This document shows, in pieces, positions 18,419 to 35,419 of a stretch of DNA of 64,000 nucleotides. This DNA is from Martelella radicis. GTDB lineage: Bacteria; Pseudomonadota; Alphaproteobacteria; Rhizobiales; Rhizobiaceae. Made by a program: the position numbers and the translations under genes. The notes below the pieces were generated by a model. The model ran no database searches, was not told the origin of the DNA, and saw only the letters and a program-made list of their open reading frames with translations. The stretch is taken from assembly GCF_014196625.1 (NCBI RefSeq), contig NZ_JACIDZ010000001.1, forward strand, positions 124,001-188,000, in the 5' to 3' direction. Within the stretch, counting starts at the first letter, position 1. Every line of letters begins with the position of its first letter.

Positions 18419-19792
18419 TCAGCCGGCCTCGTGCATTCTGCCGATCCTCTTCAGAACGGCCGCACCGGTCTTGATCCCCTTGATGAAGAGGTCGATCTTC
18501 AGGTTCTCGTTCGGCGCGTGATTGGCCTCGTCCGCATTGGCGTAAGGCACCACGAAGGCCGGCGTCTTCAGGATCTTGGTGAAGACGTAATCGGGCAGGC
18601 TGCCGCCGACAGTCGGGTAGAGCAGGGGCGTCTCGCCGCGCGCCTCCGCGATTGCCTGCTCGATGGTGGCGGCAAACGGGCTGTCCATCGGCGTCTTTGA
18701 CGGCAACATCCCGTTTCTCGGAATGAATTCGACGTCGGGCGCGTGGCGTTCCACATGGTCCCTGACCTTGTCGAACACATATTCCGGCGTCAACGGTTCG
18801 ACGAGGCGGATATCGCATTTGGCGATCGCTTCGCAAGGAAGCACTGTCTTCGTGCCTTCTCCTCCGTAACCGCCGTGAAAACCGTTGATCGTCAGCGTCG
18901 GGTGAAACATCAGCCGGTCGTAATAGGCGCGGTCGACCGGCGCATCCAGTTCATCAATGCCGAGGTCGGCCTTGATCGCCTCAAGGTCGAGCGGCAGTTG
19001 GCTGACGGCTTCGCGTTCCATGTTGGTCGGAGGGATGACCGGTTCGTTGATGCCTTCGATGGTGATCTCGCCGGCCTCGTTCTTCATCGTTGAGAGCAGA
19101 TGCACCAGCTTCCAGATCGCGTTCGGCATCACGCCGCCGAAATTTCCGGAATGGGCATCGCGCCTGGCCGTGCGGCAGTGCAGTTCGAAGGAGGCGACGC
19201 CGCGCACGCCGAAGGTGATGATCGGCTGCCCGCTTTCATGCAGCGGGCCGTCGGAGGTGATCACCAGGTCGGCCTTCAGCTTCTCGGCATGCTCGGCGAC
19301 GAATTCGGCGATGTGGGGCGAGCCGATCTCCTCCTCGCCCTCCAGCAGGAAAAGCACGTTGCAGGGCAGTTCGCCCTCGGTCTCCAGCAGTGTCTCGATT
19401 GCCATCAACTGGGCGAAGTGCTGGCCCTTGTTGTCGCCGATGCCGCGGGCATAGATGCGACCGTCGCGAATGGTGGGCTCAAAGGGCGGGCTCTTCCATT
19501 CGGCAAGCGGTTCCGGCGGCTGGACATCGTAGTGGCCGTAAAGCAGCACCGTCGGCTTGCCCGGCTTTTTCTCCCAGCGGCCAAGCACCATCGGATGGTT
19601 TTTTGTGGCGATGGTATCGGCCTCGAAGCCCATGGCTGTCAGCGTATCGACCAGAATGCCGGCGACCTCGCGGATCCCTTTGTTCTGGGCGCTGATCGAG
19701 GGATGGCTGACATAATCCATCACCCGCGCGACGAAATCATCCGCATGGGCATCGATGTGGGCGAAGGCGGTTTCAAGTTCGGTCATGGCCAT
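18419..19792 (-). CDS. M20-family metallopeptidase/dipeptidase
   Basis: 457 residues. Metal-site motifs are complete: LLYGHYDVQPPEP (His and Asp), ARGIGDNKGQ (bridging Asp), EGEEEIGSP (catalytic and ligand Glu), TSDGPLHE, and a late His in DEANHAPNE. The dimerisation/lid domain lies around residues 200-320. It cleaves a peptide or amide bond of small substrates in the cytoplasm. The gene starts 4 bases after the HyuA stop, so it is the last step of the importer-Hyu operon, consistent with hydrolysing the ring-opened or dipeptide product. Start ATG 19792 is chosen for AGGAAGG upstream; ATG 19786 is possible. Confidence 0.9.
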   Translation of the reverse strand: MAMTELETAFAHIDAHADDFVARVMDYVSHPSISAQNKGIREVAGILVDTLTAMGFEADTIATKNHPMVLGRWEKKPGKPTVLLYGHYDVQPPEPLAEWKSPPFEPTIRDGRIYARGIGDNKGQHFAQLMAIETLLETEGELPCNVLFLLEGEEEIGSPHIAEFVAEHAEKLKADLVITSDGPLHESGQPIITFGVRGVASFELHCRTARRDAHSGNFGGVMPNAIWKLVHLLSTMKNEAGEITIEGINEPVIPPTNMEREAVSQLPLDLEAIKADLGIDELDAPVDRAYYDRLMFHPTLTINGFHGGYGGEGTKTVLPCEAIAKCDIRLVEPLTPEYVFDKVRDHVERHAPDVEFIPRNGMLPSKTPMDSPFAATIEQAIAEARGETPLLYPTVGGSLPDYVFTKILKTPAFVVPYANADEANHAPNENLKIDLFIKGIKTGAAVLKRIGRMHEAG

Positions 19793-19796
19793 GTGT

Positions 19797-21839
19797 TCAG
19801 CCTTCCTCACGGTTCAGGATGACGGCGCCCGATGCGTCGACGCGTGCGCGCCAGCCGGGTTTGACGACGGTGGTGGTATCGAGCTGGGTGAGGATTGCCG
19901 GCCCGTCGAATGACGCGCCGGCGCCAAGCGTCGCCCGGTCGATGACGGGAACGGTCTCGGTGCCGGTTTCAAAATGCAAGGGAACAGCATCATACGGCGT
20001 GATCGCGCCGTCCTGCGGCGGCAGGGCGGCGATTTCGGGCGCATCGACCCGGCCCTTTGCCTCGATACGAAGCGTCACCAGCTCGATTTCGGCATCAAGG
20101 GTGAAACCGTAGAGCGCCTGATGGGCCTCGGCGAACCGCGCCTCGACCGTCGCGGCATCATCAGCCCAGGAGACGGCCAGCTCGCCGCCTTGGCCATGAT
20201 AGCGCAACAGCGCGACCGGCTGTTTCTCGCGCGCTTCAAGCGTTACCCCTTCCTCGTCAAACCATTGATCGGCCTGTTCGGCGAGCCCGGAGAGGATCGC
20301 CCCGGCGCTGTCGACATCGATTGCGCCGGCCTTTGGCATGGTGCGGGAGAACTCGGCCTTGAGGTCGGCGGCCAGAAGACCGTCGGCGCACAAGACGCCC
20401 GGGGCCGCCGGGATCATCACCTGGGCGATGCCCAGAAGCTCGGCCAGTGCGCAGCCATGCAGCGGCCCCGCGCCGCCGAAGGGCACAAGGGTGAAATCGC
20501 GCGGATCATGGCCGCGCTCGACGGAGACCACCCGCACGGCGCCGACCATATGGCTGTCGACAATGGCGAGAATGCCGCGTGCCGCCGCTTCCCGTCCGAG
20601 CTTCAGGGGCGTGGCGACGGCAGTATCGATCACGCCAAGAGCGGCCTCGACATCGAGCGCCATGCGTCCGCCAAGCAGTTTTGCCGGCAGATGACCGAGC
20701 GCGACATGGGCATCGGTCACGGTCGCCTCGCTGCCGCCATTGCCATAGGCGGCAGGTCCGGGCATGGCGCCGGCGCTTTGCGGGCCGACCGTCAGCGTGC
20801 CATCGGCAACCTTGGCGATCGAACCGCCGCCGGCGCCGATCGTTACCATGTCGACCATGGGAAGCGGCAGCGGCCATTCGCCGATGCGGCCATGCTGGGT
20901 GAGTCCGATCTCGCCATCCTTGATCAGGCAGATATCGGCGCTGGTGCCACCGATATCGACGGTGATGATATCCTTGATCCCGCAGGCGGCCGCCGCCGCC
21001 CGCGCGCCGACCACGCCGGCTGCCGGCCCCGAAAGCGCGGTCAGCGCCGGCGCCTTGCGAATGGCGGCAGCACCGGCAACCCCGCCGTTCGATTGCATCA
21101 GCAACAGCGGCGCATCAACCTTCTCGTCGGTGAGGCGCTGTTCCAGCCTTTCGACATAGGACGTCACGCCCGGCATGACCGTGGCATTCAGCACCGTGGT
21201 CAGCGAACGCTCGAATTCGCGCACGACCGGCAGAACATCCGTGGAGCAGGTGATCGCATGGTCCGGCAGCTCTTCGGCGAGGATGGCGACAACGCGTTCT
21301 TCATGGGCGGCATTGGCAAAGGCATGCAGCAGGCAGACGCCGACGGCGGTCACATCCATGGCGCGGATCGCCGCGGCCGCCTTTCGCACGCCTGCCTCGT
21401 CGAGCGCCTCGAGAACCGCGCCGCCGGGGCCGATGCGCTCGTCGATCTCGATGATGCGGGCGGCTGGAACGGGGCGCTCCGGCTTGACCCAGTTATAGAG
21501 ATTGGCCTTGCGCGGAATATCCTGCCGGCCGATTTCCAGCACGTGGCGGAAGCCGCGCGTGGTGATCAGCGCGGTTCTGGCGCCCTTGTCCTCGAGGATC
21601 ATGTTCGTGGCAACGGTGGTGCCATGCAGCACCTGCGACAGGCGCGAAGCCTCAAGACCGGCATCGCCCAGGGCAAGGCGGATACCGTTAAGGAAGGCCT
21701 CGGACGGATCTGCCGGAATGCTCGGCGTCTTTGCGCGCCACACCTTGCCGCTTGCCCGGTCCAGAAGCGAGATATCGGTGAAGGTTCCGCCGATATCGAC
21801 GGCGATCGAAAGGGCGCTTGTGATTTCAGGCGAGGACAT
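19797..21839 (-). CDS. hyuA: Hydantoinase/5-oxoprolinase A subunit (HyuA)
   Basis: 680 residues, standard for HyuA. SIAVDIGGTFTDISLL begins the N-terminal domain and TVDIGGTSADICLI a second ATP-binding segment; GAGGGSIAKV and VPFGGAGPLHGC are conserved. HyuA couples ATP hydrolysis to opening of a five-membered amide or imide ring together with HyuB. ATG 21839 is chosen because AGGAG lies 7 bases upstream; it overlaps the end of hyuB by 14 bases, indicating coupled translation. Substrate class (hydantoin, oxoproline, related lactam) cannot be decided. Confidence 0.9.
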   Translation of the reverse strand: MSSPEITSALSIAVDIGGTFTDISLLDRASGKVWRAKTPSIPADPSEAFLNGIRLALGDAGLEASRLSQVLHGTTVATNMILEDKGARTALITTRGFRHVLEIGRQDIPRKANLYNWVKPERPVPAARIIEIDERIGPGGAVLEALDEAGVRKAAAAIRAMDVTAVGVCLLHAFANAAHEERVVAILAEELPDHAITCSTDVLPVVREFERSLTTVLNATVMPGVTSYVERLEQRLTDEKVDAPLLLMQSNGGVAGAAAIRKAPALTALSGPAAGVVGARAAAAACGIKDIITVDIGGTSADICLIKDGEIGLTQHGRIGEWPLPLPMVDMVTIGAGGGSIAKVADGTLTVGPQSAGAMPGPAAYGNGGSEATVTDAHVALGHLPAKLLGGRMALDVEAALGVIDTAVATPLKLGREAAARGILAIVDSHMVGAVRVVSVERGHDPRDFTLVPFGGAGPLHGCALAELLGIAQVMIPAAPGVLCADGLLAADLKAEFSRTMPKAGAIDVDSAGAILSGLAEQADQWFDEEGVTLEAREKQPVALLRYHGQGGELAVSWADDAATVEARFAEAHQALYGFTLDAEIELVTLRIEAKGRVDAPEIAALPPQDGAITPYDAVPLHFETGTETVPVIDRATLGAGASFDGPAILTQLDTTTVVKPGWRARVDASGAVILNREEG

Positions 21840-23649
21840 CGACATACTCCTGGCGATGGAAGGCTTTGGTCTCGGGGCGGTTTTCGCGCAGTGCCGCCGT
21901 TGCGGCGGTATCGAGAGCGCCGTCGCGGATGACGACGCCGTAGAGCCGCTCTGCCGCATCGGTGCTGACAAAGCCGCCGAGCACATCGGCCAGCACCCTG
22001 TCCGCCGCCCGGTCGAAAGGATGGCCGTAGCCGCCGCCGCCGCCGGTTTCCATGCGCAGGATATCGCCCCTGGTCAGCCTGTTGCCGTCCGAAAGCGGTT
22101 TCAGGACCCTTTCGTTTGCAAGGCCGGGATTGACGGTGACGCGACCGCTGCCGCCGCCCATGCCGCCGTGAATGCCCCAGGGCGGGTTCTTGACGCTGTC
22201 GATCCGGACGGCCAGCATCATGTCCTCGGCAAGGATTTCGTATTCGCGGATAATGCCGCAGCCGCCGCGGAACTTGCCCGCGCCGCCGGAGTTTTCGACA
22301 ATGCCGTAGCGCCTGAGCCGCACCGGATAGCCGACTTCGAGAAATTCGACAGGATAGTTTTCCTGCGCGACGAAATAGACCGCATCGATGCCATCGGCAT
22401 TCGGCCGCGCGCCATAGCCGACGCCGATGCCGTCGGCGAGCAGAAAGCGCTTCAACTGGCCGTCATCCTCATCGCGGAAATTGCCGCGCATGATGGTGAT
22501 CACATAGGCCGAATTGGCGGCGGGCGCCTTGCCGCCAGCAACATTGACGAGGCCGTTGATTGCAGACAGCACGCGCATCGTCGTCAGTCCGCGCATGCCG
22601 AGCGGTGCGGGAAATGTCGGCTTCAGCAACGATCCCTCGCGCAGCTTCACCTCGTCAAGCGCGTTGGGTCCGCCGGCATTGCAGACCTGCGCCGGATCGC
22701 CGCCCAGATAGAAAAGCCCGAGCGCCATGCCGGGCACGCCCCGGTTCATCAGGAAGTTGACCGGGCCGGGAGCCTGGTCGTCGGTGGCCGTCGCATCAAA
22801 GATGAAGCGGTCGTCGCCGTCCTCGGCCCTTTCGCGCGTCAGCGAGAAGCGGATCTTGAACGGCCCGTTGCCGTGGCCGTCCGTGTCGATTGCATCGGTG
22901 AAGGAATAGGTGCCGTAGTCGAAAGTTTCGGCCAGTTTCTCGCGCACCAGCTTGCGGGTGCGCACGAGAAGCTGGGAGAGCGCGTCGGCGAGCACATCCG
23001 CGCCGAAACGCCCGACGATCTCGCCGATGCGGCGCACGCCGAGATCGACGCTTGCCATCAGGGCGCGCATGTCGCCGATGCTTTGATCGGGAAAGCGCGA
23101 ATTGCGGTGAAAGATTTCAAGCGCGGTCTCGTTGGTCACGCCGGCAGAAATCAGCTTCGTCGGCGGAACGATGATGCCTTCCTGGAAGATCTCCGTGGCA
23201 TCGGGACTGATCGAGCCCGGGTGGATGCCGCCAATATCGGCGAAATGAGCCCAACTCATCACGAAGGCGCAAAGCCGGCCATCCTTGAAGACGGGCGCCA
23301 GCAGAACCTGGTCATTGGAATGGGAGACGGCGCCTTTGGAACCGTAGCAGTCGTTGTACCAGTAGAGATCGCCGGGCTGCATCGTCTCGGCCGGGAATTT
23401 TTCCAGCACGGGCGTGGTCATGTCACCGAAGATCGGCACCATCGAGCCGACAGCCATCACGCCATCGGCATCGAAAAGGGCGGTGTAAAAATCCTTCTTC
23501 TCGCGGATAAAGGCAGAAATCGCGGTGCGCTCCAGAAGCGCTTCCATTTCAGCTTGGGCGGCGGCCACCGCGCCGCGGATGATCTCGAGCGTTACCGGGT
23601 CGCAGAGCGGCGGGCTGCCGTCGCTTTTTTCATTCACTGTGTCTGACAT
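21826..23649 (-). CDS. hyuB: Hydantoinase/5-oxoprolinase B subunit (HyuB)
   Basis: 607 residues. Typical HyuB features are CDPVTLEIIRGAV at the start, HSNDQVLLAPVF, WAHFADIGGIHPGS and the glycine-rich end METGGGGGYGHPFDR. It forms the hydrolytic partner of HyuA. It lies 39 bases downstream of the quinone-oxidoreductase-like gene in the same operon. Length and motifs are complete. Confidence 0.92.
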   Translation of the reverse strand: MSDTVNEKSDGSPPLCDPVTLEIIRGAVAAAQAEMEALLERTAISAFIREKKDFYTALFDADGVMAVGSMVPIFGDMTTPVLEKFPAETMQPGDLYWYNDCYGSKGAVSHSNDQVLLAPVFKDGRLCAFVMSWAHFADIGGIHPGSISPDATEIFQEGIIVPPTKLISAGVTNETALEIFHRNSRFPDQSIGDMRALMASVDLGVRRIGEIVGRFGADVLADALSQLLVRTRKLVREKLAETFDYGTYSFTDAIDTDGHGNGPFKIRFSLTRERAEDGDDRFIFDATATDDQAPGPVNFLMNRGVPGMALGLFYLGGDPAQVCNAGGPNALDEVKLREGSLLKPTFPAPLGMRGLTTMRVLSAINGLVNVAGGKAPAANSAYVITIMRGNFRDEDDGQLKRFLLADGIGVGYGARPNADGIDAVYFVAQENYPVEFLEVGYPVRLRRYGIVENSGGAGKFRGGCGIIREYEILAEDMMLAVRIDSVKNPPWGIHGGMGGGSGRVTVNPGLANERVLKPLSDGNRLTRGDILRMETGGGGGYGHPFDRAADRVLADVLGGFVSTDAAERLYGVVIRDGALDTAATAALRENRPETKAFHRQEYVDVLA

Positions 23650-23688: not shown

Positions 23689-24696
23689 TCAGGCCGGATC
23701 GCCGGGAAAGACGACGACATTGCCAAGCCCGCCCGCCTCGACGCGTTCATGGGCAAGGGCAATGTCGGCAAGGGAAAAGGTTGCGCCGATGGCGACCTGC
23801 AGCCTGCCGGATCCGGCAAGCGCATCTATCCTGGCTTCGCCGGCGCGGTGGGCGTCCTCGGGTATGGCAAAGCCCTGGATGAAGCGCAGATTGGCGCCGA
23901 TGGAGGCAAAGGCGTAGTAGGAGAGAACCGGCTCGGGATTGCTGCTCGATGAATAGGCGGCGATCGTGCCGTTGGGTTTGAGGACGGCGGCGGCAAGCGC
24001 GGCATTGGCGGCGAAATCGACCTCGATGATCCGGTCGACGCCGGCCCCATCCGTCAGATCCAGAATGCGGGCTGCCACATCTTCTGCCTTGCGGTTGATG
24101 GTGATTTCCGCGCCCGCGTCCGTTGCATGGCGGGCGGACGCGTCACTGCTGACCGTGCCGATCACACGAGCGCCGTCGAGTGCTGCCATCTGCACGGCGA
24201 AATGACCGACCGCGCCTGCCGCGCCGCTGACGAGCACGGTTTTCCCCGCAACGCTGCCATCGGCAAAGACGGCCCGGTGGGCTGTCATGGCGGGAACGCC
24301 GAGGCACGCGCCCTCGGCAAAGGTCAGATGATCATTGAGCCGCACCGCCTGCCGCGCGTCGATGGCGATCAGTTCGGCAGCTGTTCCATAGGCCCGACCC
24401 TTCTGGCGGTAGCCGCCCTGCGCATTCCAGAGCCAGACGCGCTCGCCGATACGGCCGGCATCGACGCCGGGGCCGACAGCGATGATCTCGCCCGCGCCAT
24501 CGGTGTGGGGGATAATCAGCGGGTGATCCATGCCCATGCCGCGCCATCCCGCGCGGCGCTTCACATCCGCCGGATTGATGCCGGAAGCCCGGACAGCAAC
24601 CAGCACCTCGCCGGGACCGGGGGCGGGATCAGTGAGATCGCCAAATTTCAGGACGTCCCCCGCAGGGCCGGTCCTTTCGTAGAAAGCCGCCCTCAT
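23689..24696 (-). CDS. NADPH:quinone oxidoreductase-like protein (zinc-free MDR)
   Basis: 335 residues. The N-terminal GroES-like domain contains GEVLVAVRASGINPADVK, and SGAAGAVGHFAVQMA is the NADPH-binding loop of quinone oxidoreductases and zeta-crystallins. No zinc-ligand cysteines appear where alcohol dehydrogenases have them. The start overlaps the upstream ATPase stop by 4 bases. Its role with the Hyu enzymes is unclear; reduction of an unsaturated intermediate is one possibility. Confidence 0.88.
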   Translation of the reverse strand: MRAAFYERTGPAGDVLKFGDLTDPAPGPGEVLVAVRASGINPADVKRRAGWRGMGMDHPLIIPHTDGAGEIIAVGPGVDAGRIGERVWLWNAQGGYRQKGRAYGTAAELIAIDARQAVRLNDHLTFAEGACLGVPAMTAHRAVFADGSVAGKTVLVSGAAGAVGHFAVQMAALDGARVIGTVSSDASARHATDAGAEITINRKAEDVAARILDLTDGAGVDRIIEVDFAANAALAAAVLKPNGTIAAYSSSSNPEPVLSYYAFASIGANLRFIQGFAIPEDAHRAGEARIDALAGSGRLQVAIGATFSLADIALAHERVEAGGLGNVVVFPGDPA

Positions 24697-25700
24697 GCGC
24701 CTGTCTCCCCGTCATAGAGGTGGCAGGCGACGAGGCGGTTGCCGACGGTCTGCGGCTTCGGGACGTCCGAGGCGCAGCGGGCAAAGGCTTTCGGGCAGCG
24801 GTCGCGAAAGACGCAGCCCGAGGGCGGGTTGCGCGGATCCGGCGCGCCGCGTCCGATCGGCAGCGGTTCGTGGCTCTGGTCGGGATGGGGCACGGGAACT
24901 GCGGAAACGAGCGCCTTCGTATAGGGGTGCAGCGGTTCGCGCACGATCTCCTCGGTCGGCCCGTCCTCCATGATGCGGCCGAGATACATGACGATGGTGC
25001 GTTCGCAGACATAGCGCACCAGCGCCAGATCATGGCTGATATAGATCGCTGTCAGCCCCAGCCGGTCGCGCACATCGCGAAAGACGTTGAGCACGCCGGC
25101 ACGCACCGAGACATCGAGCATGGAGACCGGCTCGTCGGCGACGACAAATTCCGGTTCCAGGATCAACGCGCGCGCCATCACCACGCGCTGCAACTGCCCT
25201 CCGGAAAGCTGATGCGGATAACGGTCGAGAAATTGTTGGGGATCGGGAAGCTTCACCAGTTCCAGGGCTGCGATGATCTTCGCCTCGCGGTCCTTCTTGG
25301 GAATTCCGGCATTTTCCAGCGGCTCGGAGAGCGTCGCGCGGATGGAAAAGCGCGGATTGACCGCGTCGAAGGGGTTCTGGAAGATCAGCTGCGCCTGCGA
25401 GCGGAATTTCTTCAGCCGTTCCCGGCCCATGCCGGAAAGGTCAGAACCTTCGAAATTGATATTGCCGTCGGTCACGTCCTCGAGTTTGAGGAGAAGCCGG
25501 CCCATGGAACTCTTGCCGCAACCGCTCTCGCCCAGAAGGCCGATGCTCTCGCCCCGACGAATGTCGAAGCTGACGCCGTCGACGGCTTTCACCACGGTGG
25601 AATGGCCGCGCATGGCCGATAGCGCGCTTCCGACCTTGTAGTGCAGTTTCGCCTCGAAGATCGAGACCAGGACGTCATTCTTCTTTCCCGACATCATCAT
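24693..25700 (-). CDS. Peptide ABC transporter ATP-binding protein (OppF/DppF type)
   Basis: 335 residues. Walker A GESGCGKSSMGR, signature LSGGQLQRVVMARAL and Walker B FVVADEPVSMLDVS are intact. The C-terminal oligo_HPY region with a cysteine cluster (CVFRDRCPKAFARC) is typical of Opp/Dpp ATPases that carry a 4Fe-4S cluster. Three consecutive ATG codons (25700, 25697, 25694) overlap the OppD-type stop. Works as a heterodimer with the next gene upstream. Confidence 0.92.
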   Translation of the reverse strand: MMMSGKKNDVLVSIFEAKLHYKVGSALSAMRGHSTVVKAVDGVSFDIRRGESIGLLGESGCGKSSMGRLLLKLEDVTDGNINFEGSDLSGMGRERLKKFRSQAQLIFQNPFDAVNPRFSIRATLSEPLENAGIPKKDREAKIIAALELVKLPDPQQFLDRYPHQLSGGQLQRVVMARALILEPEFVVADEPVSMLDVSVRAGVLNVFRDVRDRLGLTAIYISHDLALVRYVCERTIVMYLGRIMEDGPTEEIVREPLHPYTKALVSAVPVPHPDQSHEPLPIGRGAPDPRNPPSGCVFRDRCPKAFARCASDVPKPQTVGNRLVACHLYDGETGA

Positions 25701-26713
25701 AGGTCCGCACCCCAGGTTTCGGTTTTGGCGGCTTCGACCCGAAGCTTGTCGGCCTCGCCGGCGCGGTGGCAGGCGACCTGATGGACCGCGTCCAGAGCGA
25801 CGAGCGGCGGTTCGGTGGCGCAGATGTCGATGGCGAAGGGACAGCGCTCGGCGAAACGGCAGCCCTGCGGCGGATCGGCAAGGTTCGGCGGCGCACCCTC
25901 GATCGGCGTCAGTTCGCCGGTCTCGGCCCCCGTCAGATCGGGAAAGGCGTTCTTGAGGCCCATCGTATAGGGATGCGAGGGACTGGTGAGCGTCGCCCGT
26001 GTGGTCCCGGCCTCGGCCACCTTGCCGGCATACATCACCACGGTGCGGTCGCAGATATAGGCGACAACCGAAATGTCGTGGGTGACCAGAATGACGGACA
26101 GGCCGAGCCGTTGCTGCAGTTCCTTCAACTGGTCGAGGATCTGCCGCTGGACGATGACGTCGAGCGCCGTCACCGGCTCGTCGGCGATCACCAGTTTCGG
26201 ATCGAGCGCCAGAGCCAGCGCAATCGCAACGCGCTGGCGCATGCCGCCGGAAAACTGATGCGGAAAATCCGACAAGCGGCCGGGATCGATGCCGACCATG
26301 TCGAACAGTTCCTCCGAGCGTCGGCGTGCATCCCGTTTTCCCATGCCGCCGCGTTTCCGCAACACTTCGGCAAGCTGGTATTCGACCGTATAGACCGGAT
26401 CGAGCGAGTTCATCGCGCTCTGCGGCACGAAGGCGATGTCGCGCCAGCGCAGCGCGTTCATCCGCCGTTCGGGCAGCTTGGCAAGGTCCTGCCCGGCAAA
26501 CATGATCCTGCCGCCGGAAATCGCGGCATTGTCGGCCATCACCCGGGTCAGCGCCCGCGCGGCCGTGGTCTTGCCGCAGCCGGATTCCCCGACAAGGCCG
26601 GTGATCGATCCTTCCGGCACATCGAAGCTTGCGCCATCGACGGCATGGACGAGGCCGCCGGGCACCTTGTAGGACACTGTGAGATTGTCGACGGAAAGAA
26701 GCGGTTCGCTCAT
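25697..26713 (-). CDS. Peptide ABC transporter ATP-binding protein (OppD/DppD type)
   Basis: 338 residues. Walker A GESGCGKTTAARAL, signature FSGGMRQRVAIALALA and Walker B LVIADEPVTALDV are complete, with the C-terminal CRFAERCPFAIDIC cysteine cluster. It overlaps OppC and OppF-type neighbours by 4 bases each. Together the two ATPases energise import through the OppB/OppC-type channel. Confidence 0.92.
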   Translation of the reverse strand: MSEPLLSVDNLTVSYKVPGGLVHAVDGASFDVPEGSITGLVGESGCGKTTAARALTRVMADNAAISGGRIMFAGQDLAKLPERRMNALRWRDIAFVPQSAMNSLDPVYTVEYQLAEVLRKRGGMGKRDARRRSEELFDMVGIDPGRLSDFPHQFSGGMRQRVAIALALALDPKLVIADEPVTALDVIVQRQILDQLKELQQRLGLSVILVTHDISVVAYICDRTVVMYAGKVAEAGTTRATLTSPSHPYTMGLKNAFPDLTGAETGELTPIEGAPPNLADPPQGCRFAERCPFAIDICATEPPLVALDAVHQVACHRAGEADKLRVEAAKTETWGADL

Positions 26714-27606
26714 CGGCTCAACTTCGGAAACAGGAGGTTTTCATAGCCGCGCGTGACGAAGAAGCCCGCGCTGACGACGAGGATGATGCATAGGCCCGGC
26801 GGAATGAACCAGTAATAGGCCTGCTTGGCGAGCGCCTGGCTGGCGAAGGCATCCTGCAGCATGTAGCCCCAGCTAATCGAGTTCGGATCGCCGAAGCCGA
26901 GAAAGCTGATCGAGGCTTCCGTCAGGATCGCCCAGCCAATGGCGATCGAGCCGTAGAGGAAGGAAAGCGGCAACACGTTGGGCGCGACATGGCGGGCGAT
27001 GATCTTGAGGCTGGAAGAGCCCGAGATCCGCGCCGCCTCGACATAGCCCCGCGTCCGCAGCGTCAGCACCTGGCTGCGGATCACGCGCGCGGTGTCGCGC
27101 CAGAGCACCAGCGCCATGGCGATGACGACGTTCCAGATCGAGGGCTCGAGGAAGGCGGCGATGACGATGACGAAGGGCAGGAAGGGAATGCCGAAGGCGA
27201 TATCGGCAAGCCGCATCAGGATCGTATCGACCCAGCCGCCGAAATAGCCGGCGAGAATGCCGACGAGCGAGCCGATCAGCACCACCATGAAGGCAGCCGT
27301 CAGCCCGATCACCAGCGCCGAGCGGCTGCCGTAGACGAGCTGCGAGAAGATGTCGCGGCCAAGGCTGGTGGTGCCGAGGATGAAGCCATCCTGACCGGGA
27401 TGCAGGTCGGCGGCGAGATCGTAGGACGCCGAATAGAGGATCTCGTTCGGGTCATGGGTGGCGATATCGGGAGCGAAGATCGCCGCCAGGATGAAGACCA
27501 CATAGATGAGAACGCCGGCGATGGCGAAAGGATCGCGCACCGGGAATTTCAGGGCACGGGCGAAGCGGCCGAGACCGCCGGAAAGGGAGGAGGCAATCTC
27601 ACGCAT
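26710..27606 (-). CDS. Peptide ABC transporter permease (OppC/DppC type)
   Basis: 298 residues from ATG 27606, overlapping the OppB-type stop by 8 bases. About six membrane helices. The family feature ILGTTSLGRDIFSQLVYGSR follows the first helix, and the EAA-like loop YVEAARISGSSSLKIIARHV contacts the ATPase. Confidence 0.9.
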   Translation of the reverse strand: MREIASSLSGGLGRFARALKFPVRDPFAIAGVLIYVVFILAAIFAPDIATHDPNEILYSASYDLAADLHPGQDGFILGTTSLGRDIFSQLVYGSRSALVIGLTAAFMVVLIGSLVGILAGYFGGWVDTILMRLADIAFGIPFLPFVIVIAAFLEPSIWNVVIAMALVLWRDTARVIRSQVLTLRTRGYVEAARISGSSSLKIIARHVAPNVLPLSFLYGSIAIGWAILTEASISFLGFGDPNSISWGYMLQDAFASQALAKQAYYWFIPPGLCIILVVSAGFFVTRGYENLLFPKLSR

Positions 27607-28576
27607 GGCCGATCCTCGGGTCAAGCAGGGCATAGAGCAGGTCGGCGATCATGTTCATCAGGATCACCACCACCGCGATCAGCAGGAAGGCGCCCTGCGC
27701 CAGCGGATAGTCCGAGGCGGAAACGGCGCGCACCAGTTCGCGGCCAAGCCCCGGCCAGGAAAACACGGTCTCAACCACGACATTGCCCTGCAGCTGGTAA
27801 CCGACGGCGATCGCAAAGGAGGTCATGATCGGCAGAAGCGCATTACGGGCGGCATGGCGCACGACCACTGTCCAGCTCGAAAGCCCCTTGATGCGCGCCA
27901 TGGTGACGAAATCTTCCTTCATCACGTCCAGCATGTTGGAGCGCATGAGGAGAAGCGGCAGACCCTGGCTGTAGATGGCGAGGGTCAGTGCCGGCAGAGC
28001 GAGATGGGCGAGAAAATCGCGCGACGTATAAAGCGCGAAATAGCCGTCATAGCTTTCGCCGGCCGTGCGCGTGCCGCCTGCCGGAAACCATCCGAGCCAG
28101 AAGGAGAAGACGGCAAGCAGTACCATGCCGAGCCAGAATTCCGGCATGGCGCGGGTGGTCAGCACGGCGGGAATGGCCGCCTGCTCGACCCAGTTGCCGC
28201 GCTTCCAGGCAAGATAGGCGCCGGCCAGAATGCCGAAGGCGTATGCGACGATCAGCGATGTGAAGGTGAGGATCAGCGTGTTCGGCAGAAGCGGAAAGAT
28301 GATTTCGGCCACCGGCTTTCGATAGGTGAAGCTCTCGCCGAGATTGCCCGTGAGAAGATTGCCGATATAGATCAGATATTGCTGCCACAACGGCTTGTCG
28401 AGCCCGAAGGAAGCCATCAGGATTTCCTGCTGCTCCAGGGTGAAATTCGGATCGATATAGGCCGCCATCGGGTTGCCCGGCATCAGCCGGAACATCAGGA
28501 ACAATATGGTGACCACGGTCCACAGGACCAGCAGCATCTGCAGCACGCGGCTGCCGATCGGCTTTAAAGTTGACAT
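27599..28576 (-). CDS. Peptide ABC transporter permease (OppB/DppB type)
   Basis: 325 residues with six membrane helices. The N-terminal helix is followed by FRLMPGNPMAAY, then the periplasmic LGLDKPL-like segment SFGLDKPLWQQYL. The C-terminal half has the coupling loop FVTMARIKGLSSWTVVVRHA and the ending YALLDPRIGHA. It lies about 110 bases downstream of the binding-protein gene with a hairpin between. Confidence 0.9.
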   Translation of the reverse strand: MSTLKPIGSRVLQMLLVLWTVVTILFLMFRLMPGNPMAAYIDPNFTLEQQEILMASFGLDKPLWQQYLIYIGNLLTGNLGESFTYRKPVAEIIFPLLPNTLILTFTSLIVAYAFGILAGAYLAWKRGNWVEQAAIPAVLTTRAMPEFWLGMVLLAVFSFWLGWFPAGGTRTAGESYDGYFALYTSRDFLAHLALPALTLAIYSQGLPLLLMRSNMLDVMKEDFVTMARIKGLSSWTVVVRHAARNALLPIMTSFAIAVGYQLQGNVVVETVFSWPGLGRELVRAVSASDYPLAQGAFLLIAVVVILMNMIADLLYALLDPRIGHA

Positions 28577-28687: not shown

Positions 28688-30334
28688 CTAGTTGCCGAGC
28701 GTTTCCTTGATGTCGCCCGGATAATGCAGCTTGCCGCCCTCGAGCGTATAGCCGGCATCTTCCAGCGTCTGTTTGGCAAGATCGGTGCCGGTGGCGAAGT
28801 CCTCGACCGCCGGGTCATGCCAGAATTCAAGCGCCGGCGAGACGACGGAATTGGAAGGCACCGCATAGCCGCGATAGGCGGCCTTGGCGATCAGTTGCCG
28901 GTTGACCGCCTGCGACAGTGCCATGCGGAAGGCCGGGTCGTCGAAGGGGGCGCGGCGGTTGTTGAAGCCGATATAACGGAAGCCGATATCGACGGTGGAG
29001 ACCGCCTCGAGATCGGGGTTTTCCGTGGCAGCGTCAACGAGGACCTGCGGGTCGCCCGGGAATTCGCCGATGAAGTTCAACTCGCCCGACTTCAGCATGC
29101 CAAGGGCTGCTTCCGCATTCGGCACGATGCGCAGGATCCAGCGATCGGCCTTCGGCGCGTGGAAATGATCGGTATTGGCCTCCAGAACGATTTCCTCGTT
29201 CTTGGTCCAGCTTGCAAACTTGTAGGGACCGGAACCGATTGGCGTCTCTTCCTGATAGCTTTCGGCGTTTTCCGGCTTGTCCTTCAGATCCGCCAGGATC
29301 GGGCCCCAGACATGTTCGGGAATGATGTTGATCTTGGCGAGCGTCGACGTCAGGAACGAGGCAAGCGGCGTCTTCAGGTGGAAGGTGACGACATCGCCCT
29401 CGACATCGACGCTGTCGATGTTCTTGGCGAAGGGCTGATACATCGGGGCCTCTTCGCTAGCGGCTGCCTCGTAAGAGAACTTCACGTCCTCCGCCGTCAC
29501 CGGCTCGCCGTCGTGCCACGTCATGCCGGGACGCAGGGTCAGCGCGATCGTGGTGTCGTCGAGCCATTCATAGCTTTCCGCCGCCCAGGGCTGCGGCAGG
29601 CCGTCGGGGCCGACGCGCAGAAGCCGGTCATAGACAAGTTCGGTCACCCAGCTGTCGACGCCGCCGGAAATATAGAGCGGGTTGATCGACTTCACATTGT
29701 CGGAGGAATTCAGGACGATATCCTTCTCCTCGCCAAGCGGGGTGATGTCCATGAAGGTCCAGGCATTCTTGATGCCGATGCCGCTCTGGTTGACGACGGT
29801 TTCGGGATCGAAGACGGCCTTGTTGAAGGCGAAGGTGGATTTGGGATGAACCAGCATCATGTTGGGCTGGTCGGCGCTGAGGATTTCCTGGGCCTCGAAC
29901 ACCATGTCCCTGCGCGTGTCCTGATCGACTTCGCGGCGCTGCGCTTCGACGATCGAGTCATATTCGGGGTTCTTGTAGCCGATGAAATTGTAGCCCGATT
30001 CGGCCGTGGTCGAGTGGAACAGGTTGAACAGAAGCTCATCCGGGTCCGAACGCTCCGGCCGCCCGACCATCTGCCAGGCGGTGGCATCCCAGGCGCCGCG
30101 GTCGTACCAGACGACATTCGACATCTGCTCCCAGGGCATGACCTCGACCTTGACGTCGAGACCAAGCTTTCGCCATTCCTGGGCAATGAGCTGGACGGAC
30201 TGGAATTCGGCCTGCTGACCGGCCTGCGGCCGGGAGAAAAGCACGATTTCGCGAATCTCATCGCCGGCAAAGGCGGGCAAGGCCGCCGTGGAGGCCAGCA
30301 ACGCGGCAAGGGAAGCCCGCGCGATATAATTCAT
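28688..30334 (-). CDS. Peptide-type ABC transporter substrate-binding protein with circularly permuted domain order
   Basis: 548 residues with a signal peptide cleaved near residue 24 (PAFAG). Residues about 28-195 (IVLFSRPQAGQQAEF, then LFHS and YKNPEYDSIV, EAQEILSADQP) match what is normally the C-terminal third of the SBP_bac_5 (DppA/OppA) family. Residues about 205-548 (IVLNSSDNVKSINPLY, LVYDRLLR, LRPGMTWHDGEPVTAEDVKF, GSGPYKF, then FRMALSQAVNRQLI and ending GYTLEGGKLHYPG) match its N-terminal two thirds. The ends meet where an ordinary member would be continuous. First gene of the importer-Hyu operon; an IclR-type palindrome lies upstream. The substrate is probably a peptide or cyclic amide. 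Confidence 0.85.
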   Translation of the reverse strand: MNYIARASLAALLASTAALPAFAGDEIREIVLFSRPQAGQQAEFQSVQLIAQEWRKLGLDVKVEVMPWEQMSNVVWYDRGAWDATAWQMVGRPERSDPDELLFNLFHSTTAESGYNFIGYKNPEYDSIVEAQRREVDQDTRRDMVFEAQEILSADQPNMMLVHPKSTFAFNKAVFDPETVVNQSGIGIKNAWTFMDITPLGEEKDIVLNSSDNVKSINPLYISGGVDSWVTELVYDRLLRVGPDGLPQPWAAESYEWLDDTTIALTLRPGMTWHDGEPVTAEDVKFSYEAAASEEAPMYQPFAKNIDSVDVEGDVVTFHLKTPLASFLTSTLAKINIIPEHVWGPILADLKDKPENAESYQEETPIGSGPYKFASWTKNEEIVLEANTDHFHAPKADRWILRIVPNAEAALGMLKSGELNFIGEFPGDPQVLVDAATENPDLEAVSTVDIGFRYIGFNNRRAPFDDPAFRMALSQAVNRQLIAKAAYRGYAVPSNSVVSPALEFWHDPAVEDFATGTDLAKQTLEDAGYTLEGGKLHYPGDIKETLGN

Positions 30335-30571: not shown

Positions 30572-31354
30572 GTGACCGAGGGGAAGGACTACACGATCGC
30601 CGCCGTCGACCGTGCCATGGTGGTGCTGGAGGCGCTGGCGGAGCGGCCCAATCAGGGCCTGACGGAACTCGCCAAATCGCTCGGCATGACAAAATCCCTG
30701 GTTTTCCGGATTCTGTTCACGCTTGAGGAGCGCGGCTTCGTTTCGCGGGATGCGGAGCGTTCGGAATATGCGCTTGGCTATCGGATCGGCGTCCTGGGCG
30801 AGTGCCTCGGCAAGGATGGCGGCCTGTTGTTTGCGGCGCGTCCGGTCATGGATTGGTTGCGCGACGTCACTTCGGAGAACGTCAATCTGGTGATTCGCGA
30901 CGGCACGGAAAGCTATGTCCTCGCAACGCGTCCCGGACGTCATTCGATGCGTCTCTTCGCCCAGGCCGGCCGGTTCGGGCCGCTTCATGCCGGCGGCAGT
31001 TCGCAACTGCTTCTCGCCTATGCCGACCCCGCAGTGATCGAGGACGTGCTTTCAAGACCGCTCGAAACCTTCACGCCCTATACCATCACCGATCCCGACA
31101 AGCTGCGCCAGACGCTCGAGCGCATACGCGCAAGCGGCTACAACATCGTCACCAATGATCTGGACGAAGGCGCATTCTCCGTGGCCGCGCCGATCAAGGG
31201 AGCGGACGGAACGGTGACGGCCTCGATTTCGATCGCCGGCGCCGTCATGCGCCTCGACGAGGAACGCCGCGCGGCAAACCTGGAGGCAGCGCTTGAGGCC
31301 GGTCGCCGGATCTCGGAAAAGCTTGCCGTGGGCGGTGTGCTGAAGGCTGGCTGA
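30572..31354 (+). CDS. IclR-family transcriptional regulator
   Basis: 260 residues. The winged helix-turn-helix (about residues 24-60, GLTELAKSLGMTKSLVFRIL) is followed by the IclR effector domain with VRDGTESYVLAT-type core and the closing DEGAFSVAAPIKG and ASISIAG. The GTG start at 30572 has GGGGA upstream. It is divergent from the importer-Hyu operon and followed by the M28-like gene; both promoters carry the same 17-bp palindrome. It probably senses a small acid produced by the pathway. Confidence 0.92.
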   Translation: MTEGKDYTIAAVDRAMVVLEALAERPNQGLTELAKSLGMTKSLVFRILFTLEERGFVSRDAERSEYALGYRIGVLGECLGKDGGLLFAARPVMDWLRDVTSENVNLVIRDGTESYVLATRPGRHSMRLFAQAGRFGPLHAGGSSQLLLAYADPAVIEDVLSRPLETFTPYTITDPDKLRQTLERIRASGYNIVTNDLDEGAFSVAAPIKGADGTVTASISIAGAVMRLDEERRAANLEAALEAGRRISEKLAVGGVLKAG

Positions 31355-31545: not shown

Positions 31546-33273
31546 GTGAACGATATCGAATCCGCCATTCTCGGCGCCGTTTCGCTTGATGCCCCCTGGG
31601 CGCTGGTCGAAAGCTTTTCCACCTACAAGCGCGAGCATCCGGACGATGTGAACCGCGGCATGAACGAGGTGAAGGCGCGTCTTGAAAAACACGGCGTGCC
31701 GGTGACCATGCACCAGCCGGAACTTTTTCTGAGCCTGCCGGGCAAGGCGCGCGTGGAGGCCGACGGCAAGACCTTCCGGGCCAAGCCTCCGGCCTATTGC
31801 GTCGATGCGCGCGACGGTCTTGCCGGCGAACTTGTCTATGTGCCAAGCAACCAGCCGAAGGCGATCTCGACCATGTTCGAGCGCTCGGTGGAGGATGCGA
31901 GCGATCTGGCGGCGCTCGTTTCCGGCAAGATCGTGCTGTCGGAGGGATTCGCCAATCCCGGCCTCGTCGCCCAGTTTACCGAGCTTGGGGCGATCGGCGT
32001 GATCGCCATCAATCCCGGCGTCGACATTCACTGGGGCATCTGCACCACGGTCTGGGGCACGCCGGATCTCGACGACCTGCCGCGCAAGCCGCGCATTCCG
32101 GCCGTTGCCGTCAACCGCGAAAGCGGCGATCAACTGATCGAGCTGGCAAAGGCGGGCGCACAAGTTACTGTGTTTGCCGAAATGGAAGAGGGCTGGTTTT
32201 CCTCCAAATTGCCGGAAGTCTTCATCGAGGGCACGGAAGAACCGGAAAAATACATCCTGCTGCACGGCCATCTCGACAGTTGGGATGTCGGCGTGGGCGA
32301 CAACGCCACCGGCGACGCCTCGCTTCTGGAAATGGCGCGGGTTCTTTATGAAAACCGCGACAAGCTGAAGCGTTCCGTGCGCGTCTGCTGGTGGCCCGGC
32401 CACTCGACCGGGCGTTATGCCGGCTCGACCTGGTTTTCGGACAATTTCGCGCTCGATCTGGACGAGAACTGCGTCGCCTCGGTCAATTGCGACAGCCCCG
32501 GCTGCCGTTGGGCGACGGAGTTCATCAATCTGTGCATGATGAGCGAGACCGAGGATTTCCTCTCCGGGGTGATCGAGGAAGTGGCCGGCAAGAAGGCCGA
32601 GGGCGAACGCCCGCACCGCGCCGGCGACTATTCCTTCAACAATATCGGGCTTTCGAGCTATCTGATGCTGTCCTCGACCATGGCCGAGCGCGCCCGCGAG
32701 GAGAAGGGCTATTACACGGTTGGCGGCTGCGGCGGCAACATCGCCTGGCATACCGAAAACGACACGCTCGAAATCGCCGACAAGGATATCCTGCTGCGCG
32801 ACATCAAGGTCTATCTTCTCGCCGTCCTGCGTAACGCCAATGCGGAAATCCTGCCCTTCGACTGGCGCAAGACGGCCGGGGAATTCATCGGCACGATCGC
32901 GGACTATCAGAAAAAGGCTGGCGATCGCTTCGATCTGGCGCCGACAATGCAGGCCGCCGAGGCCTTGAAGACTTCTCTGGACGCCTTTTACGCAGGCATC
33001 GAGGACGGTTCGGTGACGCCGACCGCCGCCAACGCCGCGATCCAGAAACTCGCACGCATCCTGGTTCCGCTCAACTTCACTCGTGAGCAGCGCTTCCGGC
33101 ATGACCCGGCAGTGCCGATCCCGCCGCTGCCCGCTCTCTCGGCAGCAGCCGATCTCGACAAACTCGGACCGGCAAAACTTGGTTTTGCCCGCACCCAGCT
33201 CGTGCGCGGCCAGAACCGGGTGATCGCCGCACTGAAACAGGCAAAGGCCCTGGTCGAGGAAGCCAAGGCCTAG
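31546..33273 (+). CDS. M28-family aminopeptidase-like protein with PA domain and altered active site
   Basis: 575 residues without a signal peptide, so probably cytoplasmic. Residues about 90-215 look like a PA insert; 235-480 are the M28 fold. Metal-site residues His242 and Asp244 (HGHLDSWD), Asp252 (GVGDNATGD), Asp316 (ASVNCDSPG) and a late His (AWHTENDTLE) are visible. The position of the family's catalytic Glu-Glu pair reads Gly285-His286 in WWPGHSTGRYAGS. Hydrolytic activity is therefore doubtful or uses another base. GTG start at 31546 with AGAGGA upstream. A strong terminator follows. Likely belongs to the IclR regulon with the peptide importer. Confidence 0.8.
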   Translation: MNDIESAILGAVSLDAPWALVESFSTYKREHPDDVNRGMNEVKARLEKHGVPVTMHQPELFLSLPGKARVEADGKTFRAKPPAYCVDARDGLAGELVYVPSNQPKAISTMFERSVEDASDLAALVSGKIVLSEGFANPGLVAQFTELGAIGVIAINPGVDIHWGICTTVWGTPDLDDLPRKPRIPAVAVNRESGDQLIELAKAGAQVTVFAEMEEGWFSSKLPEVFIEGTEEPEKYILLHGHLDSWDVGVGDNATGDASLLEMARVLYENRDKLKRSVRVCWWPGHSTGRYAGSTWFSDNFALDLDENCVASVNCDSPGCRWATEFINLCMMSETEDFLSGVIEEVAGKKAEGERPHRAGDYSFNNIGLSSYLMLSSTMAERAREEKGYYTVGGCGGNIAWHTENDTLEIADKDILLRDIKVYLLAVLRNANAEILPFDWRKTAGEFIGTIADYQKKAGDRFDLAPTMQAAEALKTSLDAFYAGIEDGSVTPTAANAAIQKLARILVPLNFTREQRFRHDPAVPIPPLPALSAAADLDKLGPAKLGFARTQLVRGQNRVIAALKQAKALVEEAKA

Positions 33274-33370: not shown

Positions 33371-33871
33371 TCAGCCCCGTTCATTGTCGCCTTTTGCCGG
33401 ATTGAAGCTTTGGCGCACATGCAGATGGCGGTGGGGCTCCGCCTGGTCTTCGTGGACATGCATGGCGCCGCCGGTCGAAACCGGCACGAGGGATAGCGCG
33501 CCATGGGCGATGCCGCGTTCCAGGAAGAGTTGCTGGGCTGCCGCGCCCACTTCGCCAAGCTTGCCGCGCGTCACCTCGATTTCGAGCGCGGTCGAATGGT
33601 CGAGCGGAACCGAAAGCGCGGCGACGTGGCGGTCATGCGCGTCCAACCGGCGTCTGGCGAGCCGGCTGGCGAGATTGCGCGTGGTCTGGTCCACCGTATA
33701 GGAGACGACGCCAAGGCAATCGGCATCCTCCGGCCCGCTTTCAAGGTCCAGCATGGCGCGGCGGACGAGGTCGCGAATGGCTTCCGAGCGGTTCTGTGCG
33801 CCGCTCTTGTCCATATAGTGATCAAGCGCGTCGGCGATGTCGTCTGACAGGGTAATGGTGATGCGCTTCAT
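33371..33871 (-). CDS. nikR: NikR-like ribbon-helix-helix metal regulator lacking the canonical nickel ligands
   Basis: 166 residues, longer than the 133 of E. coli NikR. The DNA-binding domain is conserved (RITITLSDD, NRSEAIRDLVR). Aligned without gaps to E. coli NikR, the four nickel ligands His76, His87, His89 and Cys95 are Leu76, Ser87, Pro89 and Ala95. The ACT-like fold otherwise continues (DHSTALEIEVTRG, LERGIAHG). A C-terminal extension is rich in His (MHVHEDQAEPHRHLHV) and might bind metal. ATG 33871 is used because GGAGG lies 5 bases upstream; ATG 33883 is possible. Divergent from the nikK importer operon across a perfect NikR operator. Confidence 0.85.
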   Translation of the reverse strand: MKRITITLSDDIADALDHYMDKSGAQNRSEAIRDLVRRAMLDLESGPEDADCLGVVSYTVDQTTRNLASRLARRRLDAHDRHVAALSVPLDHSTALEIEVTRGKLGEVGAAAQQLFLERGIAHGALSLVPVSTGGAMHVHEDQAEPHRHLHVRQSFNPAKGDNERG

Positions 33872-33960
33872 GGCTGCCTCCATTGCAGTGTATCAAGCCA
33901 ATAGCAGCAATGCGGCCAAATCGAAAGAAACCGCAAGCGAACACTTGATTGCGCTTCTGT

Positions 33961-33990
33961 CGTATGATTTTTTATAGAAAATATCATACG
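33961..33990. promoter_or_regulatory. NikR operator between nikR-like gene and nikK
   Basis: GTATGA (33962-33967) and TCATAC (33984-33989) are separated by exactly 16 bases, the consensus of the E. coli NikR operator; arms extend to CGTATGAT and ATCATACG. Placed 36 bases before nikK, suited to repression of the importer. Confidence 0.85.
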
Positions 33991-34025
33991 AAATTGACTC
34001 CGATACTTTTCATCAGGTTCCAAGC

Positions 34026-34787
34026 ATGATCAGACCCGCATGTCTTCTTTTCACCGCAGCGCTTGTCGGTGCGAGCCCTGCCGCTGCGCATTTTCAGGAA
34101 ATTATTCCTTCCGCCGACGTGCTGCCGGATGGCGGCCCGGTTACGGTCGATCTGGTGTTCACCCATCCTTTCGAGGGTGGACCGGTGATGAACATGGCGG
34201 TTCCGGTGGCCGTCGGCGTGGTCAAGAATGGCGAACGGACGGACCTTCTGGGAGCGCTTGAAGAAGCGCCGCAGGGCGATGCCATGGCCTATCGCCTGAC
34301 CACCGATCTCGAAACCCCCGGCGCTGCCATCTTCTATGTCGAGCCCGAGCCCTATTTCGAGCCGGCGGAGGGAAAATTTATCACTCATTACGCCAAGGTC
34401 GTGGTCGACAGCTATGCCTCCGGCGAGGGCTGGGACGAGAGTGTCGGCCTTCCGGTCGAGATTGTGCCGCTGTCCCGGCCGACGGGGCTTTGGACGGGCA
34501 ATGCCTTTACCGGCGTGGTGACCAGGGGCGGTAAACCGGTGCCCTTTGCCGAGATAGAAGTCGAATTCATCAATGATCACGGCATTGAAGCGCCGAATGA
34601 TGCCTATATCACCCAGGTGATCAAGGCGGATGCCAATGGCACCTTCTCCTATGCCATGCCGGTATCGGGATGGTGGGGCTTTGCCGCGCTCATCGAAGCC
34701 GACGCGCCGATGACCGCGCCCGATGGCAGGGAGGTTCCGGTCGAGGAAGGCGCGCTCATCTGGGTCAACGCCAAGCCGGTCGAGTAA
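34026..34787 (+). CDS. nikK: Periplasmic DUF4198-type nickel/cobalt importer component (NikK)
   Basis: 253 residues with a signal peptide ending near ASPAAAH. A DUF4198-like beta domain follows (PVTVDLVFTHPFEGG, YVEPEPYFEPAEGKF, then NAFTGVVTRGGKPVPFA and a closing GWWGFAAL). NikK proteins accompany ECF-type nickel importers in Proteobacteria and are thought to present metal in the periplasm; the His after cleavage (AHFQE) could be a metal ligand. The stop overlaps nikM (TAATG). Confidence 0.8.
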   Translation: MIRPACLLFTAALVGASPAAAHFQEIIPSADVLPDGGPVTVDLVFTHPFEGGPVMNMAVPVAVGVVKNGERTDLLGALEEAPQGDAMAYRLTTDLETPGAAIFYVEPEPYFEPAEGKFITHYAKVVVDSYASGEGWDESVGLPVEIVPLSRPTGLWTGNAFTGVVTRGGKPVPFAEIEVEFINDHGIEAPNDAYITQVIKADANGTFSYAMPVSGWWGFAALIEADAPMTAPDGREVPVEEGALIWVNAKPVE

Positions 34788-35419
34788 TGGCCCATATTCC
34801 GGACGGCCTCCTTTCTCTTCCCGTTCTGATTGGCGGCGGCGCGGTGGCGGCCGCCGGCGTGGCGGCCGGTCTCAAGAGCATTGATGACCGGGCCATTCCG
34901 CGCGTTGCTGTGCTTTCCGCTGCCTTTTTTGCCGCCTCTCTCATCGCCGTGCCCGTCGGACCATCCAGCGTGCATGTCCTGCTCTCGGCCCTGACGGCGC
35001 TGATGCTCGGGCCGGCCATTTTTCCCGCCGTGCTGGTTGCGCTCTTGCTGCAGACCGTTCTCTTCGGTTTCGGCGGGTTGACGACGCTCGGGGTCAACAC
35101 GGTCAATATCGCGCTGCCGGGCTATCTTGTGGCGTTGATCATCGGCAAGGCTTTGCGGCGCGCGCCCTCTGCCGGCAGGGCCGCCATGATCGCCAGCCTC
35201 GGGGCTTCGGTCGCGGTGTTTCTCACCGGAGGGCTCGTCGCGCTTTGCCTCTGGCTGTCGTCATCGGCCTATGTTCCGGCGGCGCGTATTCTGCTTCTCA
35301 CCTATCTGCCGCTTGCGCTCGGCGAAGCGCTGGTTTGCGGCGCAATCGTCGGTTTCCTGAAAAGGGTGGCGCCGGAACTGCTGGAGCCTCGCCTTCCCGA
35401 AAGGGAGCTGCAGACATGA
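34787..35419 (+). CDS. nikM: ECF nickel/cobalt transporter substrate-specific subunit (NikM/CbiM)
   Basis: 210 residues with about six membrane helices. The N-terminus AHIPDG is the CbiM/NikM metal-loop motif; removal of Met before Ala would place His at position 2, as needed for square-planar metal binding. VPVGPSSVHVLLSAL and GLTTLGVNTVNIALPG carry further conserved residues. Nickel and cobalt cannot be separated by sequence here; the NikR operator favours nickel. Confidence 0.88.
   Translation: MAHIPDGLLSLPVLIGGGAVAAAGVAAGLKSIDDRAIPRVAVLSAAFFAASLIAVPVGPSSVHVLLSALTALMLGPAIFPAVLVALLLQTVLFGFGGLTTLGVNTVNIALPGYLVALIIGKALRRAPSAGRAAMIASLGASVAVFLTGGLVALCLWLSSSAYVPAARILLLTYLPLALGEALVCGAIVGFLKRVAPELLEPRLPERELQT

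Follow-up and report, generated by a model that had tools for sequence, protein, structure and literature searches.

Binding proteins with circularly permuted chains are well known from protein engineering, while natural ones seem to be few, with a single case found in the literature. This case, as presented in the excerpted text of PMC4990184, is TpMglB-2 (Tp0684), an ABC-type binding protein of Treponema pallidum which is circularly permuted in nature and stands at the head of its own family. According to the same text, the designation Type Ic / Cluster Bc is proposed for this family within the Type I / Cluster B sugar class, and the break gives rise to a fourth lobe crossing and affects strands of the N-lobe. 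TpMglB-2 is the sole natural precedent encountered; no permuted SBP_bac_5 protein was found in the open-licence literature (preprints excluded), and the excerpted text of PMC2588589 holds nothing on point for permuted binding proteins. A cluster C (Opp/Dpp-type) SBP_bac_5 binding protein which is circularly permuted is encoded in Martelella radicis, in the window analysed here, a stretch of 64,000 nucleotides (positions 124,001 to 188,000 of contig NZ_JACIDZ010000001.1). In this protein the C-terminal block of canonical members (C-block) precedes their N-terminal block (N-block); no experiment on it or its relatives came to light. The initial annotation, which took it for a complete Dpp/Opp-type binding protein that has been circularly permuted within an intact operon, is borne out by sequence profiles, by the predicted structure and by the relatives of the gene.

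The open reading frame of the 548-residue protein is intact, with an ATG start and no internal stops, and the highest 19-residue hydropathy begins at residue 4, in the presumed signal peptide (Table 1). The chain had been thought to end at KLHYPG; its actual end lies eight residues later, at DIKETLGN. A promoter scan of the region gave no site. Of the twelve further genomes from the genus, two carry the same gene, 99% and 96% identical, so that an assembly chimera does not account for it, and dN/dS against these two copies is 0.028 and 0.054, with low values in both blocks; by this sequence-level measure the window gene is under purifying selection. The intact frame, the two congeneric copies and the low dN/dS agree with the earlier description of a clean seam between two intact parts, free of frameshift or chimera. 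Although broken frames or partial annotation do occur in a few relatives (locus L144 and plasmid CP090555), none affects the window gene, and the notion of an assembly chimera, a frameshift artefact or a decaying two-gene fusion deserves next to no credence when the same open frame is found in two congeneric genomes, in named genomes and on complete plasmids and dN/dS is low in both blocks. In L144 (7929-9443), the permuted ORF stops at 504 amino acids and the tblastn match continues to 9582, the frame being broken in this metagenome-assembled genome (MAG).

Table 1. Features of the permuted binding protein and its neighbouring genes (positions are those of the window).
Feature	Coordinates	Strand	Basis
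M20 family peptidase	18419..19810	-	domains, neighbour survey
Hydantoinase A/oxoprolinase (HyuA)	19797..21839	-	domains, neighbour survey
Hydantoinase B/oxoprolinase (HyuB)	21826..23649	-	domains, neighbour survey
Zinc-type alcohol/quinone dehydrogenase family gene	23689..24696	-	domains, neighbour survey
ATPase 2 (ABC_tran, oligo_HPY)	24693..25700	-	domains, neighbour survey
ATPase 1 (ABC_tran, oligo_HPY)	25697..26713	-	domains, neighbour survey
Permease B (BPD_transp_1)	26710..27633	-	domains, neighbour survey
Permease A (BPD_transp_1, DppB-like)	27599..28576	-	domains, neighbour survey, tree
Circularly permuted SBP_bac_5-type substrate-binding protein, 548 aa	28688..30334	-	profiles, solved chains, predicted structure
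Tail past the last helix, predicted hairpin, residues 531-548, the new C-terminus	28691..28744	-	alignment, structure prediction
Canonical N-terminal block, residues 202-530	28745..29731	-	profile; model residues 180-514 on DppA 1-345
Linker joining the old C- and N-termini, approximately residues 195-204	29723..29752	-	between the two profile matches; conservation, hydropathy
Canonical C-terminal block, now N-terminal, residues 25-198	29741..30262	-	profile matches and fold match to DppA 341-482
Presumed signal peptide, residues 1-23 (MNYIARASLAALLASTAALPAFA)	30266..30334	-	read from the sequence
IclR-type regulator, divergent	30572..31354	+	domains, neighbour survey
M28 family peptidase, on the same divergent side	31546..33273	+	domains, neighbour survey

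The Pfam SBP_bac_5 model (PF00496) matches the whole protein in two stretches with 246.2 bits, well over the gathering cut-off of 32.4. When the two halves were searched separately, as the initial annotation had proposed, the N-terminal 199 residues matched positions 292-366 of the 368 in the model (E 5.4e-7; 29.5 bits, which on its own is below the Pfam cut-off), and the C-terminal 349 residues matched positions 2-284 (E 1.2e-65). The inverted order is also seen with the NCBIfam models Opp4A, DppA and Opp5A/NikA, and the cut-offs of the NCBIfam equivalogs DppA, Opp4A, Opp5A/NikA and GsiB are not reached, the best score being 137.4 bits against 600. A search of solved chains placed residues 205-531 on AppA (1xoc) 23-346 and residues 46-170 on AppA 376-495; no solved chain of permuted order matched across the seam among the best 60 of 97 and the best 60 of 111 matches. 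A split canonical profile was further made from nine aligned canonical-order proteins (eight encoded by the own genome, the ninth by a different genome within the order), cut at the seam and scored separately for the two blocks, and in the window protein its C-block falls at residues 40-174 (E 3e-22) and its N-block at residues 202-530 (E 9e-65). The usual N-to-C order of SBP_bac_5 blocks is absent, the C-block standing before the N-block, and the protein is accordingly classed as a permuted variant rather than as an ordinary member of SBP_bac_5. A collinear profile order, named beforehand as the contrary outcome, did not appear in the Pfam, NCBIfam or split-profile comparisons, all of which are inverted.

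In 115 distinct permuted proteins the last profile position reached by the N-block match is 356 (median; range 298-358, the minimum being due to a MAG whose frame is broken), and the C-block match starts at position 9 (median; range 1-63). A single loop thus contains the break, with the helix and hairpin AKxxLExAGYxxxxGKLHYP on one side of it and the strand IRxIxLxT on the other. In the joining stretch nothing hydrophobic is left of a former signal peptide, hydropathy over 19 residues peaking there at 0.35 versus 1.5 at the N-terminus, and no duplication intermediate with two C-blocks was present among the 155 ORFs classified. A lipobox-like cysteine occurs near the new N-terminus in five aligned haloarchaeal members (L145, L146, L147, L148 and L151), where a lipid anchor would hold a different part of the fold than in canonical members.

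AlphaFold2 modelling of the mature protein with a 52-row alignment predicts one confident fold (mean pLDDT 92.9, pTM 0.90). In-order fold comparison, for which Foldseek was also run, aligned mainly residues 173-520 of the model, matching AppA (1xoc) 18-359 with Z 25.0 (rmsd 5.5, 332 residues) and DppA (1dpe) 1-345 with Z 22.0 (rmsd 2.7, 317 residues). The N-terminal part thus seems unmatched at first, as would be expected if residues 28-195 formed an unrelated extra domain ahead of an ordinary or truncated binding protein. This reading is very improbable, since the N-terminal part significantly matches the C-terminal part of the SBP_bac_5 models and the remaining chain ends at profile position 284 of 368, where a C-terminal part is missing. 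The first 176 residues predicted alone, with a pLDDT of only 71, likewise match the C-terminal part of binding proteins, falling on 1dpe 341-482 (Z 8.3) and 1xoc 357-494 (Z 8.4), values near 8 being middling according to the note of the comparison tool; Foldseek was again run alongside, and the place of these matches agrees with the sequence profiles. They directly continue the first match, so that the two segments adjoin on DppA (341-482 and 1-345) and, as the initial annotation had it, the mature protein consists of the usual C-terminal segment (residues ~28-195) followed by the N-terminal segment. On prediction, and as two pieces compared separately, the protein would accordingly possess the DppA/OppA-type fold, with its N-terminal segment supplying the missing part of that same fold. 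By the domain boundaries of DppA and OppA, the new ends would lie inside the second lobe and leave the lobe crossings unchanged. Residue E94, aligned by eye through a shared DPD motif, presumably corresponds to the DppA aspartate that holds the amino group of the ligand; it is identical in all 52 rows of one alignment (A5) and differs in distant members of another (A2), and may be taken as a lead to a possible ligand contact.

The reordered protein is shared by a wide range of relatives. Both congeneric copies and a 30% identical relative from another genus of the family are permuted. At the level of the order, matches at E 1e-60 were found in 20 of 397 genomes, four of which are canonical in order, so that 16 genomes (own included) carry the permuted gene; at the level of the class, 14 of 385 genomes gave matches at E 1e-70, twelve of them permuted (own included), the remainder being L061, where the C-block match is too weak to count, and L062, which is cut by the contig end. 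These counts are lower bounds, since at most three candidates per genome were scored in the order, class and phylum searches; among 398 genomes of the phylum a single match at E 1e-70 was obtained, in the own genome, and misses among other proteobacteria are likely under that scoring and cut-off. A scan of named genomes gave 92 relatives, of which 80 were kept, and all 80 loci are permuted, including those of Neorhizobium, Nitratireductor, Mesorhizobium, Roseibium, Ruegeria, Reyranella, Falsiroseomonas and Salinarimonas. Four loci (L102, L125, L127 and L139) have Trueperaceae or beta-proteobacterial labels, all of them MAGs which may be misbinned, and most of the other named-genome matches are alphaproteobacterial. 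Among plasmids, all 34 matching records have one place covering at least 80% of the query, and the matches listed include the haloarchaea Halalkalicoccus, Haladaptatus and Natrinema at 28-34% identity; nine plasmid loci from eight records were classified and all nine are permuted, five of these being haloarchaeal, a group met in these searches on plasmids only. In total, 126 ORFs were classified as permuted and 46 as canonical, of which 115 and 42, respectively, are distinct. An earlier split, with fewer loci and slightly other thresholds, counted 124 permuted and 27 canonical ORFs among 155, the C-block of the other four being weak or absent.

Relatives with the same block order, for which the initial annotation had called, thus exist in number (115 distinct proteins), and its description of a rare rearrangement gives way to that of a common trait of a widespread family (80/80 named-genome loci and 9/9 plasmid loci). 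Nor is the arrangement a peculiarity of one gene, as the same order extends across alphaproteobacteria and haloarchaea. The window protein belongs to one permuted clade that spans these two groups, and the permutation is old. The records opened for nine family loci say only 'ABC transporter substrate-binding protein', so that the permutation is invisible in annotation.

Downstream of the binding protein gene, on the same strand, are two permease genes, two ATPase genes, a dehydrogenase gene, the hydantoinase/oxoprolinase B and A genes in that order and an M20 peptidase gene, and divergently on its other side are the IclR regulator and M28 peptidase genes. With two BPD_transp_1 permeases and two oligo_HPY ATPases beside the binding protein, the locus has the composition of a Dpp/Opp-type importer operon, and an identical gene set and order, plus a racemase gene, is found in Nitratireductor sp. 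OM-1. Elsewhere in the window, at 33371-37408, a NikR-type regulator, a DUF4198 protein, CbiM and an ABC ATPase form what looks like a nickel/cobalt uptake block. In a survey of 88 loci, 78 of which had at least 7.5 kb downstream and in which a gene was counted anywhere in the locus, permease A, permease B and ATPase 1 were each present in 77 of the 78 and ATPase 2 in all 78. Other neighbours were the M28 peptidase (62 loci), HyuB (54), HyuA and the IclR regulator (48 each), the dehydrogenase (46) and the M20 peptidase (14). The transporter genes are also kept in the haloarchaeal loci, together with nearby creatininase, M20, amidohydrolase, D-aminoacylase, dipeptide epimerase or M81 genes.

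In a 36-row tree of DppB-like permeases, the 18 rows from operons of the main family of permuted binding proteins, haloarchaea included, form one clade (support 100/100; 200 of 200 bootstrap trees), a result which wider sampling could change since the 17 rows from canonical operons are mostly of the own genome. The separate permease lineage of these operons in this tree lends indirect support to the suggestion that the permutation could alter docking to the permeases. It also bears on whether the permuted protein has left transport and become a sensor or chaperone: binding proteins with other roles are known generally, yet such a departure is very unlikely here, given that permease and ATPase genes accompany the gene in nearly every locus with enough flanking sequence and that the permeases of these operons fall in one clade.

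The own genome encodes a second permuted SBP_bac_5 protein, of 567 residues, on contig C26 (L153:7696-9399), with its own permeases and ATPases and an adjoining GntR/FCD regulator. It is 26% identical to the window protein and has the same block order and the same break position. Directly downstream of it, inside the transporter operon, a 539-residue ORF (L153:5996-7615) has no Pfam match at 1e-5. With the cut-offs used and limited scoring, relatives of the C26 protein were found in the own genome only among overlapping samples of 199, 289 and 237 genomes, and none of 24 plasmid records covered 80% of it; when all candidates in the 13 genomes of the genus were scored, the remaining full-length matches were to the window-type gene. 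In the tree of reordered binding proteins, from which L157 was left out as no row of it passed, the C26 protein groups with canonical proteins on a 100/100 branch, and a single permuted clade appears in 0% of 200 bootstrap trees. It, or its operon, also groups with canonical systems in the N-block, C-block, permease A and joined-operon trees, the C-block tree having no well-supported set that holds it; L183 and L190 were left out of the joined tree as no permease was found in them, and over-long permease B frames were trimmed to their last 300 residues.

Descent of all permuted SBP_bac_5 proteins seen, that of C26 included, from a single permutation event comes close to being an even proposition. 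It fits the identical break position and block order of the two proteins, and AU tests did not reject one permuted clade (p 0.146 for the binding protein, 0.178 for the permease and 0.161 for the joined operon), an early quick-tree test even giving the one-clade tree as better by 11 log units (p 0.74). Against it stands the placement of the C26 protein or permease among canonical systems in the binding protein, N-block, C-block, permease and joined trees. That cluster C proteins were permuted twice independently at the same loop, with both products retained in one genome, has an even chance of being correct; two independent permutations are about as likely as one, a separate origin of the C26 protein being favoured by the trees and short of established. 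If there were two, one product founded a family spanning two domains of life with its own permease lineage, the loop would act as a natural hotspot for permutation, and new importers could arise repeatedly by this route.

Whichever the number of origins, the window gene very probably encodes a secreted SBP_bac_5 importer protein of an old permuted clade, with its old ends linked, new ends in a loop and a single fold. The old C- and N-termini would be joined by the short linker and the new ends opened in the loop past the AGY...GKLHYP hairpin, and the chain is predicted to fold as one complete binding protein with the same elements in rotated order. Following its presumed export, the protein would capture its substrate outside the inner membrane and pass it to the Dpp-like permease pair, driven by the two ATPases. 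The hydrolase genes in its neighbourhood point to peptide-like or cyclic-amide substrates, and the substrate is most likely a small compound of this kind which would then be opened by the hydantoinase/oxoprolinase and the M20 and M28 hydrolases of the operon. This is a suggestion from gene neighbours, and the absence of HyuB from 24 of the 78 loci counts against a hydantoinase-based substrate class, as do the other hydrolases of the haloarchaeal loci against the class proposed. The permuted protein may have arisen from a duplicated gene whose copies fused and were trimmed, the new N-terminus receiving a signal peptide.

With a natural family of this size and a permease lineage belonging to it, one can ask directly whether chain order has effects on folding, lobe closure and docking, and at which places cluster C proteins tolerate new ends. 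Among known systems, the window protein is closest to the DppA/OppA/AppA/NikA type (cluster C), with which it shares the profile family (246 bits), the predicted fold in parts and the type of operon, in which two permeases go with a pair of oligo_HPY ATPases. It differs from these proteins in being permuted, with its ends in another loop, and in its distance from them, identity being approximately 30% at best among the alignments seen and scores falling far under the NCBIfam equivalog cut-offs. The C26 protein resembles it in block order, break and the possession of its own permease and ATPase genes, but groups with canonical systems. With TpMglB-2, as described in the excerpted text of PMC4990184, it has in common a circularly permuted chain order, whereas it is an SBP_bac_5 protein scoring above the family cut-off and not one of the Type I / Cluster B proteins.
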